Of a stretch of DNA of 37,483 nt, positions 17,737 through 37,483 are shown piece by piece. The position numbers and the translations under genes were made by a program. The notes below the pieces were generated by a model, which was not told the origin of the DNA, did not search any database, and was given only the letters and a program-made list of their open reading frames with translations. The stretch covers positions 1-37,483 of the forward strand of contig JAFAIO010000315.1 of NCBI GenBank assembly GCA_019236675.1, written 5' to 3'. The stretch is from Verrucomicrobiota bacterium (GTDB taxonomy: Bacteria; Verrucomicrobiota; Verrucomicrobiia; Chthoniobacterales; JAFAMB01). Each line of letters starts with the position of its first letter. Positions within the stretch are counted from its first letter, which is position 1.

Positions 17737-17826
17737 ATAACTTGTTAAAAAATTCCCTCTTTTGGAGGAAAACGTGGTAGCAAGTGGCTTCCGATCGAGT
17801 TGAGCTGAGTGAAGATCTCCGAAATC

Positions 17827-19239
17827 ATGTCAACGCTGGAGAAGTTGAAAGCTTCACCACGTAAATCGCTCGGGCAAAACTTTTTACACGATAATAATCT
17901 CGCCCGTTGGATTGTTGAATGCCTCGAACTGCAGGAGGGCGAACACGTCTTGGAAATCGGCCCTGGTCTGGGTGCTCTGACCGAGTGGTTGCCCCTCGAT
18001 CGGGTGTCGGCAACTTTGCTCGAAAAGGACCGTTTGTTCGCTTCGTTTCTGCAGGAGCGGTTCAGTGAACCCTCCGTGGAGGTCAAGCTGGGCGACGCGC
18101 TTCAATACGATAAACGGGCTCTTTTCTGTAAAGGCGAGGTTAAGTTGGTCGGCAACTTGCCTTACTACGTATCGACAGCTCTGCTGTTCCATTTCTCCGC
18201 TGAGCCATGCCCAATCTCTCGCATGGTATTGACCGTCCAGAAGGAAGTCGGTGACCGTGTCACAGCTTCTCCCAGATCCGGCGAGTACGGTTCGCTTTCC
18301 GTTTTGCTGCAACGCCGGTGGCACATCAAACGGTTGCGGGTCCTCCCCCCGAGCGTATTTCTCCCACGGCCAGAGGTCGATTCCCTGGTAATCGAGCTTA
18401 GAAAAAAGCGACCAGAGGATGTGCCGGAGATCGGTGAGCAGCGGTTCGAGAAAGTCGTGAAGGCGGGATTCTCGGAAAGACGGAAGAAGCTGACGAATAC
18501 GCTCTCAAAATTGGTGCCCTCGCGAGCGGTAGAAGAAGCCCTGGCGGCCGGCGGGCTTAGCGGACTCTCGCGGGCGGAAGAATTATCGCCCGAGGCCTGG
18601 GTCAATCTAGCAATGCGCCTAGGGGATTTTTGCTCGGTGGCGAACCGCGATCTTCGGCCCGAGGGCTTAGGCCAACCTCGAGCTGAGGCCGTCGTGCCGC
18701 CGCCTCGAGCGGCAGCCGTGGATCCGAGAGAGAGTCTCCAGGTCGTGGATGAGCAAGATCGCCCAATCCGAGGTGTCGACCGGGCAACCGTCCACTCTCA
18801 GAAGCTCTTGCATCGCGCAGTCCATATTCTCGTGCTGAACCGCGCCGGCGAAGTGTTTCTACAACGGCGTTCTTACCGTAAAGATACTTTCCCCAGGAAA
18901 TGGGATTCTAGCGCAGCCGGGCATGTCGACGAGGGAGAATCCTACGACGCATGCGCTGGCCGGGAAGTGCGCGAAGAGCTCGGCTTGATCGCTGAACCCG
19001 TAGAGATCGCCCGGGTTACAGCCTCGGAAAAGACAGGTCAGGAATTCATAAGCGTTTACCTGGCCCAAGCCGAAGAAATTGTCGACCTCAACGAACGGGA
19101 GATAGAAACCGGCGGTTTCTTTCCGTTAGGGATCGTTGACGAATGGATCGAAAGCCGTCCTGGGGATTTTGCGTCTGGTTTCTTAGAATGCTATCGCAAG
19201 GTGCAAGCGAGGCTAGGAGCGGCGAAAAGTGACAGGTGA
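17827..19239 (+). CDS. rsmA: KsgA/RsmA rRNA dimethyltransferase fused to Nudix hydrolase
   Basis: Residues 1 to about 270 are a complete KsgA enzyme, which dimethylates two adjacent adenosines near the 3' end of 16S rRNA during small-subunit maturation. SPRKSLGQNFLHD, the SAM motif EIGPGLGALT, the catalytic GNLPYYVST and FLPRPEVDS are all present. After a linker of about 45 residues rich in Pro, Ala and Arg, a second domain follows. This has a complete Nudix box: G, five residues, E, seven residues, then REVREELGL. Its lead VVDEQDRPIRGVDR and ending resemble YfcD/IDI-like Nudix proteins. There is no stop or frameshift between them, so one polypeptide of 470 residues is predicted. A GTG at 17809 is an alternative start. 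It overlaps the next gene by 11 bp. Confidence 0.92.
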   Translation: MSTLEKLKASPRKSLGQNFLHDNNLARWIVECLELQEGEHVLEIGPGLGALTEWLPLDRVSATLLEKDRLFASFLQERFSEPSVEVKLGDALQYDKRALFCKGEVKLVGNLPYYVSTALLFHFSAEPCPISRMVLTVQKEVGDRVTASPRSGEYGSLSVLLQRRWHIKRLRVLPPSVFLPRPEVDSLVIELRKKRPEDVPEIGEQRFEKVVKAGFSERRKKLTNTLSKLVPSRAVEEALAAGGLSGLSRAEELSPEAWVNLAMRLGDFCSVANRDLRPEGLGQPRAEAVVPPPRAAAVDPRESLQVVDEQDRPIRGVDRATVHSQKLLHRAVHILVLNRAGEVFLQRRSYRKDTFPRKWDSSAAGHVDEGESYDACAGREVREELGLIAEPVEIARVTASEKTGQEFISVYLAQAEEIVDLNEREIETGGFFPLGIVDEWIESRPGDFASGFLECYRKVQARLGAAKSDR

Positions 19240-26248: not shown

Positions 26249-28030
26249 TCAATACACATCCCGCTGATACCGATGCTCCGCCTTTAGCCTTTTGACATAG
26301 GCATCGGCCTCTTCCTTAGACTTATTGCCAGCCTGCTCTATGATCGTGTGCAAAGCGGCATCGACATCTTTCGCCATTCTTTGGGCATCGCCACACACGT
26401 AGAAGTGGGCGCCTTCCTCCAGCCATGCCCATAGTTTCGCCGCGTTTTCCAGCATCCTCTTTTGAACATAGATCTTCTCGGGCTGATCCCGTGAAAAAGC
26501 CGTGTTGAACTGCGTGAGGAGGCCGTTCTTTTTGAAGCGGAACAGTTCGTCCTGATAAAGGAAATCCGTGCTCTCTTTCTGATCTCCGAAAAACAGCCAG
26601 TTGCGCCCGGCGGCGCCTATCGCCTCCCGTTCGTACAGGAATCCACGAAACGGCGCGATTCCGGTTCCGGGACCAACCATGATCACCGGTCTAGTCTGAT
26701 CCTCAGGTAAGCGGAAATGTGCGGACTGATGCACAAAAGTCCCAACTTTTTGCTGCGCTCGATCAGCTAAAAACGTGGAGCAAACTCCTTTGCGTTTTCT
26801 GCCATTGGTTTCGTACCGAACGATTGAAATGGTCAGATGAACCGAGTGGCCATGTGCTGCCGGACTCGACGCGATTGAGTAAAGACGCGGCGCCAGCTTT
26901 CTCAGGTGGGAAACAAACTCGCTGGCATTGATTTTCGTGGATGAATGTTCCAGTAGCAGGTCCACTATTTCTCTCTGGCTGACAAAACTCTTGAGCTGGT
27001 TAACGGCTGCCGGCTCTAATAGTTGTCGTAAACCAGGATCTGCGCTGCGTTCTGCAATGCATTTTAGGAGACCCACGGGAATCTTGGTAATCTCGTAAAA
27101 CTCCAGCAGCGCTTTGTGCAGCGGTACCTCAGTTCCTTCAGGCGACGGTACCGCCTCTTCGCCGTCGCAATTTAGCGCCTTAAGGATCTGCTCGACCAAA
27201 TCCGGGCAGTTGCACGGCAAGATTCCCAGCGCATCACCTGCGTTATACGATAGGTTTGATCCTTCCAGGGAAATCTCGAAGTGGCGGGTTTCCTTTGCAG
27301 AGGCCGGCGCTGTCAGCAGCCGATTGGCGGACACCGCGGCGAGGAATGGATGTTTTCGGTTGTAGACAGTTTCTCCGCTTGGCGATGATTTATCCGGGAC
27401 AGCCCGTGTTGGCTCCGGAGGGGGTGCTGCCTTGGCTTCAATCTTAGCCGATTGCGCTGGAGAAGCTGCTTCTAAGACAGTGGCAACACCATTTCGCCAA
27501 CCTTCTGCAGCTGCCTCATAATCGACGTCGCAATCCACTCGCTGATAAATTCTCTGGCCTCCAAGCGCCTCAAGGCGAGCATCGATATCCTTTCCACACT
27601 GACAAAACCGTTCGTAATTCCGGTCACCGAGTGCGAGCACTGAATATCGAAGCTCGGAAAGGCGAGGGTGATCCGGTGCTTGTAACTCGGTATAAAACGC
27701 TTTGGCGCTGTCCGGCGGGTCGCCGTCGCCGAAAGTGCTGGTAACGACGAGAGCACAAGCTTCGCCGGCTAGCGCACTGGATGAGATTTTACTTAGATTA
27801 ACGGCCTGGGATTCGAAGCCGCGGCTTTGGAGAAATTTCGCTGTCTGCTTTGCAACTGCTTCGGAATTGCCCGTTTCCGTGCCGAAATAAACATTGGCCC
27901 GAATCTTGGGCGCTTGAGTAGCCTCGGCCGGTTTCTGCGAAAAAAGCCCCGCCAAAAATCCATTCAACCATGCTCTTTGCGCCGGGCTGAACGGAGCATT
28001 TTCGGGTATGTACGGTACCTGGACATCCAT
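26249..28030 (-). CDS. cysJ: Sulfite reductase flavoprotein subunit (CysJ-type)
   Basis: This 593-residue diflavin reductase passes electrons from NADPH through FAD and FMN, normally to the sirohaem subunit CysI for sulfite reduction. Domains in order: a short lead [20 protein letters not shown]; a flavodoxin-like FMN domain with [13 protein letters not shown] (about 48-60) and [10 protein letters not shown]; an FAD domain with [13 protein letters not shown]; and an NADPH domain with [18 protein letters not shown]. The C terminus RYQRDVY is characteristic of CysJ. The frame is open for 62 further codons upstream, but those are repeat-encoded, so ATG 28030 is chosen. No cysI is in the window. 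Another redox partner is therefore possible. Confidence 0.92.
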
Positions 28031-28508
28031 CTTGAAACTTAAAAGCAAAAGATGAGGTGTTAGCGTGTCGCGTACCAGTTGGGCCCGGTGGAGGAGAAAA
28101 CCGCTGAGATTGAGCCGAATTCCCAATGCCTCCACCTTTCGTTCTCCCAACTTCGCCACCGTGCTCCTGTGGAGCGCGCCTCGCTTGCGAGGCCGACCTT
28201 GAGCGGGTGACAACATAGAGCCTGGGCTACGTCGGGCAGGCTGTCCTCGTCGTCGTCCTCGTCCTCGAGAGGGAACTTCGTGTGGAGCTCACGCTAGACG
28301 GAATATCGCGTCGGGAGGGATCGCGTCCCCGCGATCCGCCGGGTCCGGGAGCGAGGCGGATTCGATATTACTGATCTCGGGGTGATCTCCGTCCCGCGGC
28401 GCGCGGCGACCCGTGCCCTCCCTGCCTCCGGCGGCGGTCATGTCAATGGCAACTTTTTGACCTCGATGACAAAAATGCAGCAATGTCTTATTGCCGCGAT
28501 TCCTTGGC
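28031..28508. repeat. Repeat-rich gap upstream of cysJ
   Basis: No gene is supported. About 28167-28198 has GTGGAGCGCGCCTCGCTTGCGAGGC, closely matching the arms at about 20088-20105 and 20420-20445. A TCGTCGTCGTCCTCG block follows at about 28244-28268. At 28318-28337, GGATCGCG and CGCGATCC form a perfect 8-bp stem with a TCCC loop. The remaining GC-rich part (about 28338-28440) has further short dyads. An 87-codon minus-strand frame across this area has no recognisable features. Confidence 0.65.
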
Positions 28509-29231
28509 TTATCCCCGGTTAGCTCCAGCCTGCTTACCCTCGGTTGAGTCAATATATGGCAGCGGCGTCTTCTTTAGCCCGAGCTCAGCGTCGAGAAGAT
28601 TGCGCAGCTGATCGATATTGTTCTTCAGCGCGTTATAAGACTCAATCAGAGTCAACGCCCCAGCGTGCAAAGCATACGTCGTGTCCGCGGTGGCTCCGCT
28701 TGCGGGTTGAGCCGCATTTGTCGAGGCGCGAACATCCATGCGGTTATAGCCCTGGTATTGATCAACGAGACGTTTCGCGAACATATAGGTTCGCACCAGG
28801 CTCGAACGCAGTTGATCATTCTCGATCAATCCAATTGTGCCCGCATTACGGTCAAACACGGAGAAGTAACTCTGATTGTAGGACCAGTACGGCAAAGGTT
28901 TTCGCTTGAGGTCCAAATTTTCAATTGGCCCGCCCAGATCCTCGGCCACAATTATCCAGAGCTGCAAAATCTCCTCGCGTAGAGCGTGCAGAGTTCCTAA
29001 AACTCGATCCCGATCAGATGTCCGATTACGTTGGCGTTCCGCTTCGGCCTGCTCGAACCGTGACTTGTTTACGTTTCGATAGGCGGCGTTGGCTGCGATC
29101 ACCGCTCCTCCCAAAGCGATGACGGCCGCTAACAGGATAGTAACTGCTTGCAGCCAAACCGAGGGCCCAAGTTGTGAAAAGAACTGGGATAGAGAACTCC
29201 AAATCTGGTTTGTTAAAAGATGGGCGTCCAT
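28509..29231 (-). CDS. Single-span membrane protein, unknown function
   Basis: I do not recognise this 240-residue protein. One membrane segment is predicted at about 27-49 (WLQAVTILLAAVIALGGAVI). A basic, charged helix follows (NKSRFEQAEAERQRNRTSDRDRVLGTLHALREEI), likely a coiled coil in the cytoplasm, then a mostly helical domain. The layout resembles DUF4760-like or chemoreceptor-signalling-like membrane proteins, but no catalytic motif is visible. Its ATG overlaps by two bases the ATG of the divergent protease gene (shared CATG at 29229-29232). The 5' untranslated regions of both genes therefore lie inside the other coding region. Confidence 0.7.
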   Translation of the reverse strand: MDAHLLTNQIWSSLSQFFSQLGPSVWLQAVTILLAAVIALGGAVIAANAAYRNVNKSRFEQAEAERQRNRTSDRDRVLGTLHALREEILQLWIIVAEDLGGPIENLDLKRKPLPYWSYNQSYFSVFDRNAGTIGLIENDQLRSSLVRTYMFAKRLVDQYQGYNRMDVRASTNAAQPASGATADTTYALHAGALTLIESYNALKNNIDQLRNLLDAELGLKKTPLPYIDSTEGKQAGANRG

Positions 29232-30171
29232 GAGCTACCGCGATCTTGGCTTTTTCGCCGTAATTGTTCAGCTTTTTTTTGCTCTAGCGAGCGCACTAGC
29301 GAGCGAGTCGCCCGAGATCATCGATTTGATTCCCCAGGAGCTGCACCTGGTAACCAGCTTGTCCGGGGACACCGACACCCGGGTTGAACGTTTTTCTAAT
29401 CAGATTCTTGCGAGAGAACCAGAAGTTTATCAGCACCTTTGGCACTTCGATTCGGCGAAGGTCAAGGCTTTCGTGGCAAAAGTGCCGGAATACATTTCCG
29501 GGATTCGAAAGTTGCACGCTTTGTTCGAGCAGCAGGAACCAACAATACTCGGTCGTTTTTGTCAGGCTTTCCCGGAATTCGCCCCGGGAAAGGTCAAGAT
29601 CTACTTGATGCTCTCTCTCTTCCAGTTCGATGCCAAGATCCCGAGCGAGCATCCGGACTCGCTGCTAATAGGATTAGACGGGTTAGCCCGCTTCCATGGA
29701 ACCGATGCGCCGTTGGCGGTGATCCTTTCGCACGAATTCTTTCATCTCTATCATTTCCAGGTCAATCCGTTGCCGAAAAATCCGGACGACTTGCCCCTCT
29801 ATCGATTGCTCTGGCAGGAGGGACTGGCGGTCTATGCAAGCCAGCAACTCAATAGCGGAGCATCGTTGGCTGACGTCTTGCTTGACCCTCGACTAGCAAC
29901 AAACGGTCCCACGTCGGTCCGGGCCGAAGCAAAACGGCTCCTATTATGTCTGGACTCACGCGAGGACATCACGGCTGCGCATTTTCTCGCCAAAAGCGAA
30001 AACGGAGAAGTTCCCGGGAGAATCGGCTATCTCATCGGATATGATATAGCTGCCCGGTTAGCCCAGAAACGATCGCTGAGCGCCTTAGCCCGGCTCCGAG
30101 ACCCTGGCCTCCGCTTTGCCTTACACCGGGAGGTATATCGGCTGGCCTACGGCACGGCGACATCGCCGTGA
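29230..30171 (+). CDS. Exported HExxH zinc metallopeptidase (gluzincin type)
   Basis: This 313-residue protein starts at the ATG at 29230, which is followed by a signal peptide (MSYRDLGFFAVIVQLFFALA, cleavage near residue 25). The zinc motif HEFFH is at 168-172, and a downstream WQEGLAVYAS supplies the likely third ligand E197 in an EGLA.Y context. This is like DUF2268 and related predicted Zn-dependent proteases. It should act in the periplasm. The rest is helical with no other known domain. It is divergent from the membrane protein at 28509 with overlapping start codons, so the two may be co-regulated. An open frame upstream of 29230 is antisense to that gene and was not used. Confidence 0.82.
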   Translation: MSYRDLGFFAVIVQLFFALASALASESPEIIDLIPQELHLVTSLSGDTDTRVERFSNQILAREPEVYQHLWHFDSAKVKAFVAKVPEYISGIRKLHALFEQQEPTILGRFCQAFPEFAPGKVKIYLMLSLFQFDAKIPSEHPDSLLIGLDGLARFHGTDAPLAVILSHEFFHLYHFQVNPLPKNPDDLPLYRLLWQEGLAVYASQQLNSGASLADVLLDPRLATNGPTSVRAEAKRLLLCLDSREDITAAHFLAKSENGEVPGRIGYLIGYDIAARLAQKRSLSALARLRDPGLRFALHREVYRLAYGTATSP

Positions 30172-30433: not shown

Positions 30434-31246
30434 CTACTTCAACTGATAGCCGGCCTGCACCGCGGCATCCGAGAACGCTTTCCCGAGTTGCTGGGCTTTG
30501 GTAACAGCTTCTTTATCGTGGAACGAAAGGGTACCGTCAGGCTTACGTGTCCAAGAATTTTTGCTCTCCTTCAGAAAATCGACGTAAGCGGCCGTTGCGT
30601 CGGCGAATTTGCTCGTGTTCTGTGCCGTTTTCAGATCATCGGGTACGTTGCCTTGCTTAGCGAAAGCGTCGGCCACTTGGGTATTGAGCGGATCGGCCAC
30701 TCCAATATCGGCCAAGCGCTTGGCTAACTCATTTTGCACGTCTTGAAAAACGCCGACAGCGTCCTCCGAACTTTGTTTCAGGTGCATCGCTGCATCTCTG
30801 ATCTTTGCCAGATCGTCGTCGGTTTTAGCCTGAGCAAGTGGTTGAAAGATTAACGTCACCTGAGTGTTGGAATCGACCGTTTCCTTTTCTTTAGTTTTCG
30901 TGATCTTGTCCAGCTCATCGCTAAAGATGTTTAATATCTTCTTGTTTGTGTCCGAGAGAGTGCTGGCATTCACCTTCAACAAGTTGAGAAAATCATCCGG
31001 AGTTTTCAGCTCGCCGACAGCGCTGGCAGCGGCCGATGCTGAAGCGGATGCCGAAGCTTCAGCGTTGGCCTGGGCCATCGTCTTCCCTTGGCTTGTGGCC
31101 TGCGCGTACTTCATCAGGTTGATGAACGGCGCCGGATTAAGGAACAGGTAAACCAGCGCCGCGATCACGATCGCCATTACAATTAACGGCGCCATTCGCC
31201 CCAGGGAGCCGTGCGGCTTGTCAATTTGGGATTTTTTTAACTCCAT
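30434..31246 (-). CDS. Membrane-anchored helical protein, unknown function
   Basis: I do not recognise this 270-residue protein. A basic N terminus (MELKKSQIDKPHGSLGR) precedes one membrane span (about 19-37, PLIVMAIVIAALVYLFL), suggesting an inside-to-outside anchor. A low-complexity Ala/Ser stretch (about 62-78) acts as a spacer. The rest is helical and charged (DDFLNLLKVNASTLSDTNKK, DLAKIRDAAMHLKQSSEDAV). It lies 13 bases downstream of the exported nucleosidase gene, so the two form an operon. Its job is unknown. Confidence 0.75.
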   Translation of the reverse strand: MELKKSQIDKPHGSLGRMAPLIVMAIVIAALVYLFLNPAPFINLMKYAQATSQGKTMAQANAEASASASASAAASAVGELKTPDDFLNLLKVNASTLSDTNKKILNIFSDELDKITKTKEKETVDSNTQVTLIFQPLAQAKTDDDLAKIRDAAMHLKQSSEDAVGVFQDVQNELAKRLADIGVADPLNTQVADAFAKQGNVPDDLKTAQNTSKFADATAAYVDFLKESKNSWTRKPDGTLSFHDKEAVTKAQQLGKAFSDAAVQAGYQLK

Positions 31247-35210: not shown

Positions 35211-35279
35211 GCTCGATTTTTGTGGTGTAGCATCAGCTTGCCTCTCGATCCATGCGCCCCCGCCCGATAATCGAGCTCA
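35208..35279. terminator. Bidirectional hairpin joining two convergent stop codons
   Basis: TGAGCTCGATT (35208-35218) and AATCGAGCTCA (35269-35279) are perfect 11-bp reverse complements. The first three bases are the TGA stop codon of the NTF2-like gene, and the last three are the TGA stop codon of the minus-strand gene. A TTTTT run lies next to the left arm. The loop is 50 bases, long for a classic intrinsic terminator. A shared end structure for both transcripts is likely by position. Confidence 0.55.
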
Positions 35280-37483
35280 GCCTCTGACTATCATCCTGAC
35301 TATTCTATTATGGTTTCCCTTTTCTACGTACACGGATACCAGCAAGCGTTCCTTGCACGAGAGTAAGGCAATCTCGCCGATCGCTCTTTCGCAGCTCTTA
35401 AAGGAATGCCTGGCGCAACAGCTCGCCAGAACAAAACCTTCAAAATCGGCGAAGCAATCGTAGATCACTTCACACACTTTGCCGGTGTATTCTTCATATT
35501 CAGTTTGCGGTTTTATTTTAATCGGGATGCCTGTCTGAGAGGGCATAATACCGGCAGCGTAACCACCCGCGCCGTCAACTCGCGCTGAAAGATACGCGAT
35601 ATATTTTTTCACAACTGGGTACCACCTGTATTCGGGCGTCATGTTATCGAGCCGCCATTTCATGATAGCCAGAGTGTTTTCATCAGAGGGAAGCATCGCC
35701 TCCTCTGTTGTGACCGGGATAGTGACCTGGAAGGCACCGGTCACATAACGCCATTTGGCATATTTGCCGTTTGTGGAATATGCCACCGTATTAATCTCGT
35801 CCCTTATGGGTATCGTCCCCGTGGTTAGCCGGCGAACGGTGATTCTAAACAGTTGTCCCCTGGTGATCCCCCTTGGTAAATCGACCGTCAAAAGGCCTGC
35901 AAATTGTTTGCCTGCCGCGGACGGTATAGGAATATACGTTACTCCATTTACCACCTTGCAAGTAATAGTATTTGTCTCGGAGGCCGTGAGCAGATGCGTC
36001 CCATATATCTCTGCTGCCAGTTGCACCACGTCGGCGGCTTTTACCTGGGGCCAGTAAATATGAGCGACACTGCCGGGAGGCGTATTCCCCCAATCGATCA
36101 TCAACTCATCGGGATTGTTGACCAGGCTGCCGTTGGTATCGCGGAAAGGTGGACTCGGACGCGTGTCAAATGCTTGCGGAATTCGGTGAGTCGATGCCGG
36201 CCCCGGGTTGCCTGACGATGTAATCTGGAGATTGCGCTGCGCCAACTTATCCGAATTGCCCGGGTATGTGGTAACAGAGCTTGAATAGTTAATCGGGGCT
36301 CCGTCGTAAGCGATCTGAGCCACCAAACAGTGGTGTGTGCCCGGATACAAACTATTATTATTGGAGTCATACACGTCAAGATAACAACCGTAGTAGGCCC
36401 ATACGCTATCCCGACCGGATATAACTGGGACTTCGATAGTTTGTATATTGTTGTTGATATTCGGGTTAGTAAAAGTTGGATTATAATCGTTGGTACCATT
36501 ATCCGTAGCAAAAAACGGAACTGTCTGGATGCCAGCCCCAGTGGGATCCGGTGGCAGGCTGGCCGACGAGGGTAAGGGATTAGTCGGCAAAGCCGGGTAC
36601 CCGGGATTGCTCGGGTAAGTGGTGTAGGGCTGGAAGTCAGTATCAAACGATGGAGCGACCCAGAGCCTAAAAAATACCCTTACATTAGTCGCTTCTCCCG
36701 CTGAGCCCTGCTGATCGCTTCTCAGGCGCACTCTGGCTATGGCAAAATTGTAATTCTTTTCGTTGCCATTCAACGGAGTTACCGATGTTTCCCCAGTCTC
36801 GTATCCTGCCTGGTCCGGTAAGCCGTTTAACGGATCGGAGGAGCTGCTCAGGACGGGGGTTGTATAGGCACTGGAATCGTTTAGATAACCGAGAAACGCT
36901 TGAAGGTATTCGTGTGCGGTTTGACTGGCTGAAAACGTAGGAGCATTAGTGTCATTAGGCAATCCTGACGCTCCCTGGGTAATAGTAAACACCCGCAAAT
37001 CTTGGCTTAAATAAGAAACCGCATCGTTATTAGCAGGGTCGATATTTGAGAAGTAAGGGTCAGCGCCGGACACCAATTCAAAATCAACCGTATCCTGTGA
37101 GTGAACACCGGGTACAGTTACACCGCCAATAGTAAAAGTCGTGTTCAGCGGGTACTCCTGATTACCACTCGAGGGAAACGCCGACGTATCCGTAAAAATG
37201 ATATCAAAAGAGTATCTGATCCTTTGTACGAGGGACGGGTTATTCGGGTCTTCGTAGACCGGAAACGGCTGAGCCGGAGTAGGTCCACCGGGCATCTGTG
37301 GCGAAGGCGCTACCTTAATCCCGGTCAGACCCAAAAACGACCCTGATACCGTGGGTATGCCTACGCCAAAGGATTTAAAGGTATTTATGCTGAAGCCGTC
37401 GAGCGCAAGCCAGAAGGCGTTGGAAAATACCCCGCCGTTGGTATTGATTGCGTCCGTCACTTCGTCTACACCGAAGGTATTTT
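35277..37483 (-). CDS. Large Asn/Thr/Pro-rich protein of unknown function (5' end outside window)
   Basis: I do not assign this protein to a named family. The frame stays open to the window edge: codons for TFGVDEV precede the GTG at 37460 with no stop, so the N terminus lies outside. About 735 residues are visible. The first 400 are rich in Asn, Thr, Ser, Pro and Tyr and look like beta-rich extracellular or surface modules (NVRVFFRLWVAPSFDTDF, YPGTHHCLVAQIAYDGAPI). DELMIDWGNTPPGSVAHIYWP and GLLTVDLPRGITRGQLF follow, which give the impression of a conserved core. The last 60 residues are Cys-rich (EVIYDCFADFEGFVLASCCARHSFKSCERAIGE would hold six cysteines). Base composition is visibly lower in GC than the flanking genes. 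Confidence 0.75.
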   Translation of the reverse strand, partial: NTFGVDEVTDAINTNGGVFSNAFWLALDGFSINTFKSFGVGIPTVSGSFLGLTGIKVAPSPQMPGGPTPAQPFPVYEDPNNPSLVQRIRYSFDIIFTDTSAFPSSGNQEYPLNTTFTIGGVTVPGVHSQDTVDFELVSGADPYFSNIDPANNDAVSYLSQDLRVFTITQGASGLPNDTNAPTFSASQTAHEYLQAFLGYLNDSSAYTTPVLSSSSDPLNGLPDQAGYETGETSVTPLNGNEKNYNFAIARVRLRSDQQGSAGEATNVRVFFRLWVAPSFDTDFQPYTTYPSNPGYPALPTNPLPSSASLPPDPTGAGIQTVPFFATDNGTNDYNPTFTNPNINNNIQTIEVPVISGRDSVWAYYGCYLDVYDSNNNSLYPGTHHCLVAQIAYDGAPINYSSSVTTYPGNSDKLAQRNLQITSSGNPGPASTHRIPQAFDTRPSPPFRDTNGSLVNNPDELMIDWGNTPPGSVAHIYWPQVKAADVVQLAAEIYGTHLLTASETNTITCKVVNGVTYIPIPSAAGKQFAGLLTVDLPRGITRGQLFRITVRRLTTGTIPIRDEINTVAYSTNGKYAKWRYVTGAFQVTIPVTTEEAMLPSDENTLAIMKWRLDNMTPEYRWYPVVKKYIAYLSARVDGAGGYAAGIMPSQTGIPIKIKPQTEYEEYTGKVCEVIYDCFADFEGFVLASCCARHSFKSCERAIGEIALLSCKERLLVSVYVEKGNHNRIVRMIVRG

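Follow-up and report, generated by a model that had tools for sequence, protein, structure and literature searches.

A CATG shared by the start codons of two divergent verrucomicrobial genes and its probable origin by loss of a spacer

Introduction

In contig C214 of G000, a verrucomicrobial metagenome-assembled genome of 5.87 Mb, two genes on opposite strands appear to begin within a single CATG, so that their start codons overlap. The arrangement raises the questions of whether both starts are real, how they came to be joined, and whether the junction acts as a regulatory switch. The contig was analysed as a whole and is referred to here as the window (37,483 nt); the gene on its minus strand is called P1 and the gene on its plus strand P2. 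The reading favored here, to which a probability of about two in three is given, is that the CATG is the true shared start of two unrelated neighbouring genes and that it arose by loss of the spacer between them.

Short divergent overlaps between opposite-strand genes have been surveyed before. In 58 species, Lillo and Krakauer (2007; PMC2174442) counted 331 divergent overlaps, 57 of them (331 minus 274) shorter than 5 nt, and Palleja (2008; PMC2478687) recorded 457 in 338 genomes, or 1% of overlaps, with all 75 of those longer than 60 bp judged to be start errors. Roughly one short divergent overlap per genome is thus on record, which makes them a rare but real and already catalogued kind. 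P1 and P2 resemble these cases in being opposite-strand genes that overlap by a few bases at their start codons; they are distinguished by an overlap of exactly 2 nt that three species share, and by a homologous pair with a spacer in a fourth.

The two genes and their shared start

The features of the locus are given in Table 1. The start of each gene was picked independently by a home-made gene caller trained on G000; the genome statistics given below come from an 836-kb sample of this genome, in which 573 genes were called. A sequence-only reading of the locus had claimed that the two ATG codons share two bases, and this is borne out: the overlap consists of the A and T at 29230-29231.

Table 1. 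Features of the P1/P2 locus, in coordinates of the window.
Feature	Coordinates	Strand	Remarks
P1, 240 aa	28509..29231	-	Hydrophobic/TM helix at the N-terminus, then a helical domain; dN/dS 0.04-0.09
P1 5' coding region	29130..29229	+	Must hold the P2 promoter/leader if transcription starts nearby; no good promoter hexamers
CATG with both starts	29229..29232	.	Minus-strand ATG is the complement of 29229-29231; plus-strand ATG is 29230-29232
P2, 313-aa exported putative zinc metallopeptidase, DUF2268-like	29230..30171	+	HEFFH at residues 168-172, WQEG at 195-198; dN/dS 0.14-0.17
P2 signal-peptide region (MSYRDLGFFAVIVQLFFALASALA/S)	29230..29304	+	Must also house the promoter and leader of P1 if its transcription starts nearby

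P1 matches no Pfam family above the cut-off, and its AlphaFold2 model is poor (mean pLDDT 59). Searches of relatives' genomes and a scan of a large species collection found P1 in this genus only. P2 is a predicted member of the DUF2268 (PF10026) putative zinc proteases, for which it has both a sufficient Pfam score (27.2 bits against a gathering cut-off of 23.6, over residues 159-285) and an HExxH motif, the invariant HEFFH. The AlphaFold2 model of P2 is likewise poor (mean pLDDT 43), and PDB sequence searches gave nothing useful. A second, diverged P2 paralogue with 32% identity is encoded in the same genome (L007, G000:C420:1414-2319); it is divergent from a gene resembling DmpA/P1-type aminopeptidases (L018, 1666-2871), a family call made by eye alone.

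Evidence for the two starts

The identical shared CATG is present in two congeners, G002 and G003. In G002 the P2 start is at 2620 and the P1 match ends at 2621, and the same two-base overlap is found in G003, where an assembly break divides P1 between the ends of two contigs (C645 and C166; L010 and L012); the gene itself is not broken. Its occurrence in both congeners shows that the shared CATG did not arise through faulty assembly and is no artefact of ORF calling. For three species pairs, dS of the two genes is about 0.2-0.7 and dN/dS is 0.04-0.17 (0.05 for full-length P1); because the CATG is kept at this level of divergence and constraint, the comparison indicates that both P1 and P2 are genuine genes under purifying selection.

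An in-frame TAG lies 6 nt upstream of the P1 ATG in G000, G002, and G003, which rules out an earlier start for P1. Within P1 the first in-frame alternative (ATG, GTG or TTG) comes at codon 29 or later, inside the membrane segment, and the P1 N-terminus aligns from Met1 across four species, including the more distant congener G001 (69% identity overall). In P2 the next such codon is at position 23 or later, at or beyond the end of the signal peptide. With no alternative start, Met1 of P1 kept, and the CATG in three species, the two starts appear to overlap without over-extension of either frame. No orthologue was found to begin deep within the present frame; the different start of P2 in G001 results from an indel of roughly 125 nt and is not such a case. 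The starts proposed by the sequence-only reading are thus real by comparative evidence.

The P2 frame is open for 48 codons upstream of its ATG, antisense to the conserved coding region of P1, and it would be conceivable that P2 truly starts there, at TTG 29089 or at ATG 29119 (the latter conserved in G002 and G003), which would give a longer overlap and make the CATG incidental. Such a mis-assigned start is very improbable: the upstream openness is already explained by the coding constraint on P1, with the third positions of the two frames facing each other; in G001 a stop closes the P2 frame 17 codons ahead of the ATG, and no homologous extension can therefore exist there; and an upstream start would bury the canonical signal peptide of P2 behind at least 37 residues. 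The literature verdict on divergent overlaps longer than 60 bp also counts against it (PMC2478687).

The shared start is unusual for its own genome. The 81 divergent pairs in the 836-kb sample have a median gap of 318 bp and a 5th percentile of 57 bp; only four have a gap of 10 bp or less, and the three others look by eye like 5' over-extensions.

Origin of the overlap

The origin of the shared CATG is best approached through G001, whose proteins have 61-69% identity to those encoded here. G001 has the same gene order and has kept the CATG of P1, but its P2 ATG is 125 nt further away, leaving a 123-nt spacer between the two start codons; the plus-strand ATG within the CATG of P1 is present in G001 but out of frame with P2. 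The simplest history, and the most likely one on this comparison, is loss of the spacer: an ordinary spacer between divergent genes would have disappeared in the ancestor shared by G000, G002, and G003, and its loss would have set the P2 frame in register with a plus-strand ATG that already lay across the CATG start of P1. Such an ATG need not be special. In the G000 sample C precedes about 30% of start codons, so a start codon often reads CATG and thereby places a chance ATG on the opposite strand.

We infer the direction of this change, since P1 and P2 were not found together beyond the genus, whether among 97 relatives, in a 384-genome sample of the class, or in one scan of an 84,980-species collection. 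The opposite history, in which the genus began with the overlap and a spacer of about 123 nt was later inserted in G001, draws what strength it has from this lack of a polarizing outgroup. It is nevertheless unlikely, since an insertion that spared the P1 ATG and also supplied a new in-frame ATG for P2 is less probable than a loss, and since spaced divergent pairs are the rule in the G000 sample; the usual gap is so much larger than the one seen here that the spaced state is the likelier ancestor. As to the junction expected from spacer loss, similarity to G001 beyond ATGAGC is at chance level, and an exact deletion junction at ATG microhomology could not be shown.

Promoters and translation initiation

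A transcript that includes its start codon must begin at or before that codon, so P1 has to be transcribed from within P2 and P2 from within P1, and the two promoters point toward each other from either side of the CATG. The earlier proposal that each promoter and ribosome site falls within the coding region of the other gene therefore holds by geometry. Each promoter would sit near the start of the other gene's coding sequence, any leaders on the two mRNAs would be complementary at their 5' ends, and some promoter interference may follow from the facing arrangement.

Scans for sigma-70 promoters at the CATG and in the G001 spacer gave no site above chance, and no promoter was identified on either strand. 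Two weak, conserved -10-like sites are present: AAAGAT, which ends 8 nt before the P2 ATG, scores 5/12 overall and is the best conserved in the 5' region of P1, and CAAGAT, which ends 11 nt before the P1 ATG. Together with a -35, the -10-like sites at the CATG reach at most 7/12.

Neither start has a good Shine-Dalgarno (SD) sequence, as the sequence-only reading had pointed out, but its suggestion that this might indicate leaderless transcription does not follow. Fully 83% of called starts in the 836-kb sample lack even a 4-nt SD match; matches of at least 4 nt occur at 17% of starts versus 7% of internal start-like codons, a mild enrichment. Some Verrucomicrobia have been listed as SD-scarce (PMC10783764), and the G000 sample agrees. 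Because SD scarcity is usual in this genome, its absence at P1 and P2 is ordinary and is no pointer to leaderless transcription. A TANNNT peak at 7-12 nt upstream of starts, as expected of leaderless genes, was not evident genome-wide in the G000 sample. The mRNAs of P1 and P2 would rely for translation on the SD-poor initiation typical of G000, and the folding energies of both start regions are average.

A possible regulatory switch at the CATG

The overlap might be a functional device, in which facing promoters and complementary 5' ends make expression of P1 and P2 mutually exclusive or tightly coupled, as in an excludon or by promoter occlusion. The geometry does force the promoter territories to overlap, and the arrangement has been retained in G000, G002, and G003. 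In these three species codons 1-7 of P2 are identical, and of the third positions of P2 codons 2-21 a single one varies where 6.6 would be expected to do so (permutation p = 0.004), a possible trace of a regulatory element under selection. Among 49 orthologous control genes compared between G000 and G002, variability tends to be lower at 5' ends (ratio 0.77), and three of the 49, P2 itself being one of them, show 5'-end conservation as high as that of P2; the suppression in P2 falls only in the 6-10% tail of the controls, and the case for a selected promoter inside the P2 signal peptide is weakened accordingly. In P1, codons 2-21 show no suppression (7 variable third positions versus 6.4 expected).

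Retention of the CATG needs no regulatory function either, since an overlap once formed stays simply because each ATG is needed. In addition, the same gene pair exists with a spacer in G001, and P2 occurs without P1 in G005 and G006; in G005 it lies 3 bp behind a UspA-like gene, and P1 and P2 are therefore not an obligate pair. A functional device is accordingly improbable. Its stricter form, a fused start that was itself selected as a switch, in which crossed promoters in the first codons of the partner occlude each other and leave a cell with only one of the two products, membrane protein or exported peptidase, is extremely improbable. The claim of mutual exclusion or tight linkage thus found no positive evidence: the pair has a normal spacer in G001, P1 is confined to the genus, and P2 has orthologues elsewhere without P1. 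The two genes appear to have no dedicated switch at their start.

In bidirectional promoters a shared core serves start sites that point outward, and simultaneous binding of opposing RNA polymerases is not possible (Warman et al., 2026; PMC12825309). Like P1 and P2, genes with such promoters are divergent and served from very little DNA; in contrast, a bidirectional promoter lies between its genes, whereas the promoters of P1 and P2 must be crossed, face to face. A bidirectional promoter at the CATG itself was considered and rejected, as there is no intergenic space to hold it and outward start sites would leave out both start codons. Excludons (Toledo-Arana and Lasa, 2020; PMC7154746) are comparable in that overlapping 5' mRNA ends are expected for P1 and P2 if either has a leader. 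They are, however, defined by long overlapping transcripts with inverse expression, while the transcripts of P1 and P2 might overlap by as little as 2 nt.

Other features of the window

Several other genes of the window were noted. A 476-aa ORF at 17809-19239 (+) joins an rRNA adenine dimethylase domain (RsmA/KsgA-like, residues 18-270) to a C-terminal NUDIX domain (334-441). Downstream of P1, the flavodoxin/FAD/NAD-binding reductase ORF at 26249-28216 (-) extends too far at the 5' end; judged from alignment with G002, its start is probably at about 28030, which leaves a spacer of about 480 bp before the P1 stop. On the other side of the pair, 30434-31246 (-) encodes a 270-aa membrane-anchored protein with an Ala/Ser repeat (ASASASASAAASA) and no Pfam family; full-length matches to it were found in this genus only, with weak partial paralogues elsewhere in the same genomes. 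The 727-aa ORF at 35277-37460 (-) has no Pfam match and is rich in N, P, T, and S, with a Cys-containing C-terminal part of different composition. Rfam and tRNA scans of the window were empty.

Concluding remarks

The joining of P1 and P2 at one CATG is a rare but ordinary case of gene compaction, and its kind is already known. Its value lies in the comparison that it offers: sister species carry the same divergent pair either fused at the start codons or 123 nt apart, a clean natural case of before and after, which could serve to study how promoters and ribosome sites persist once no intergenic DNA is left.
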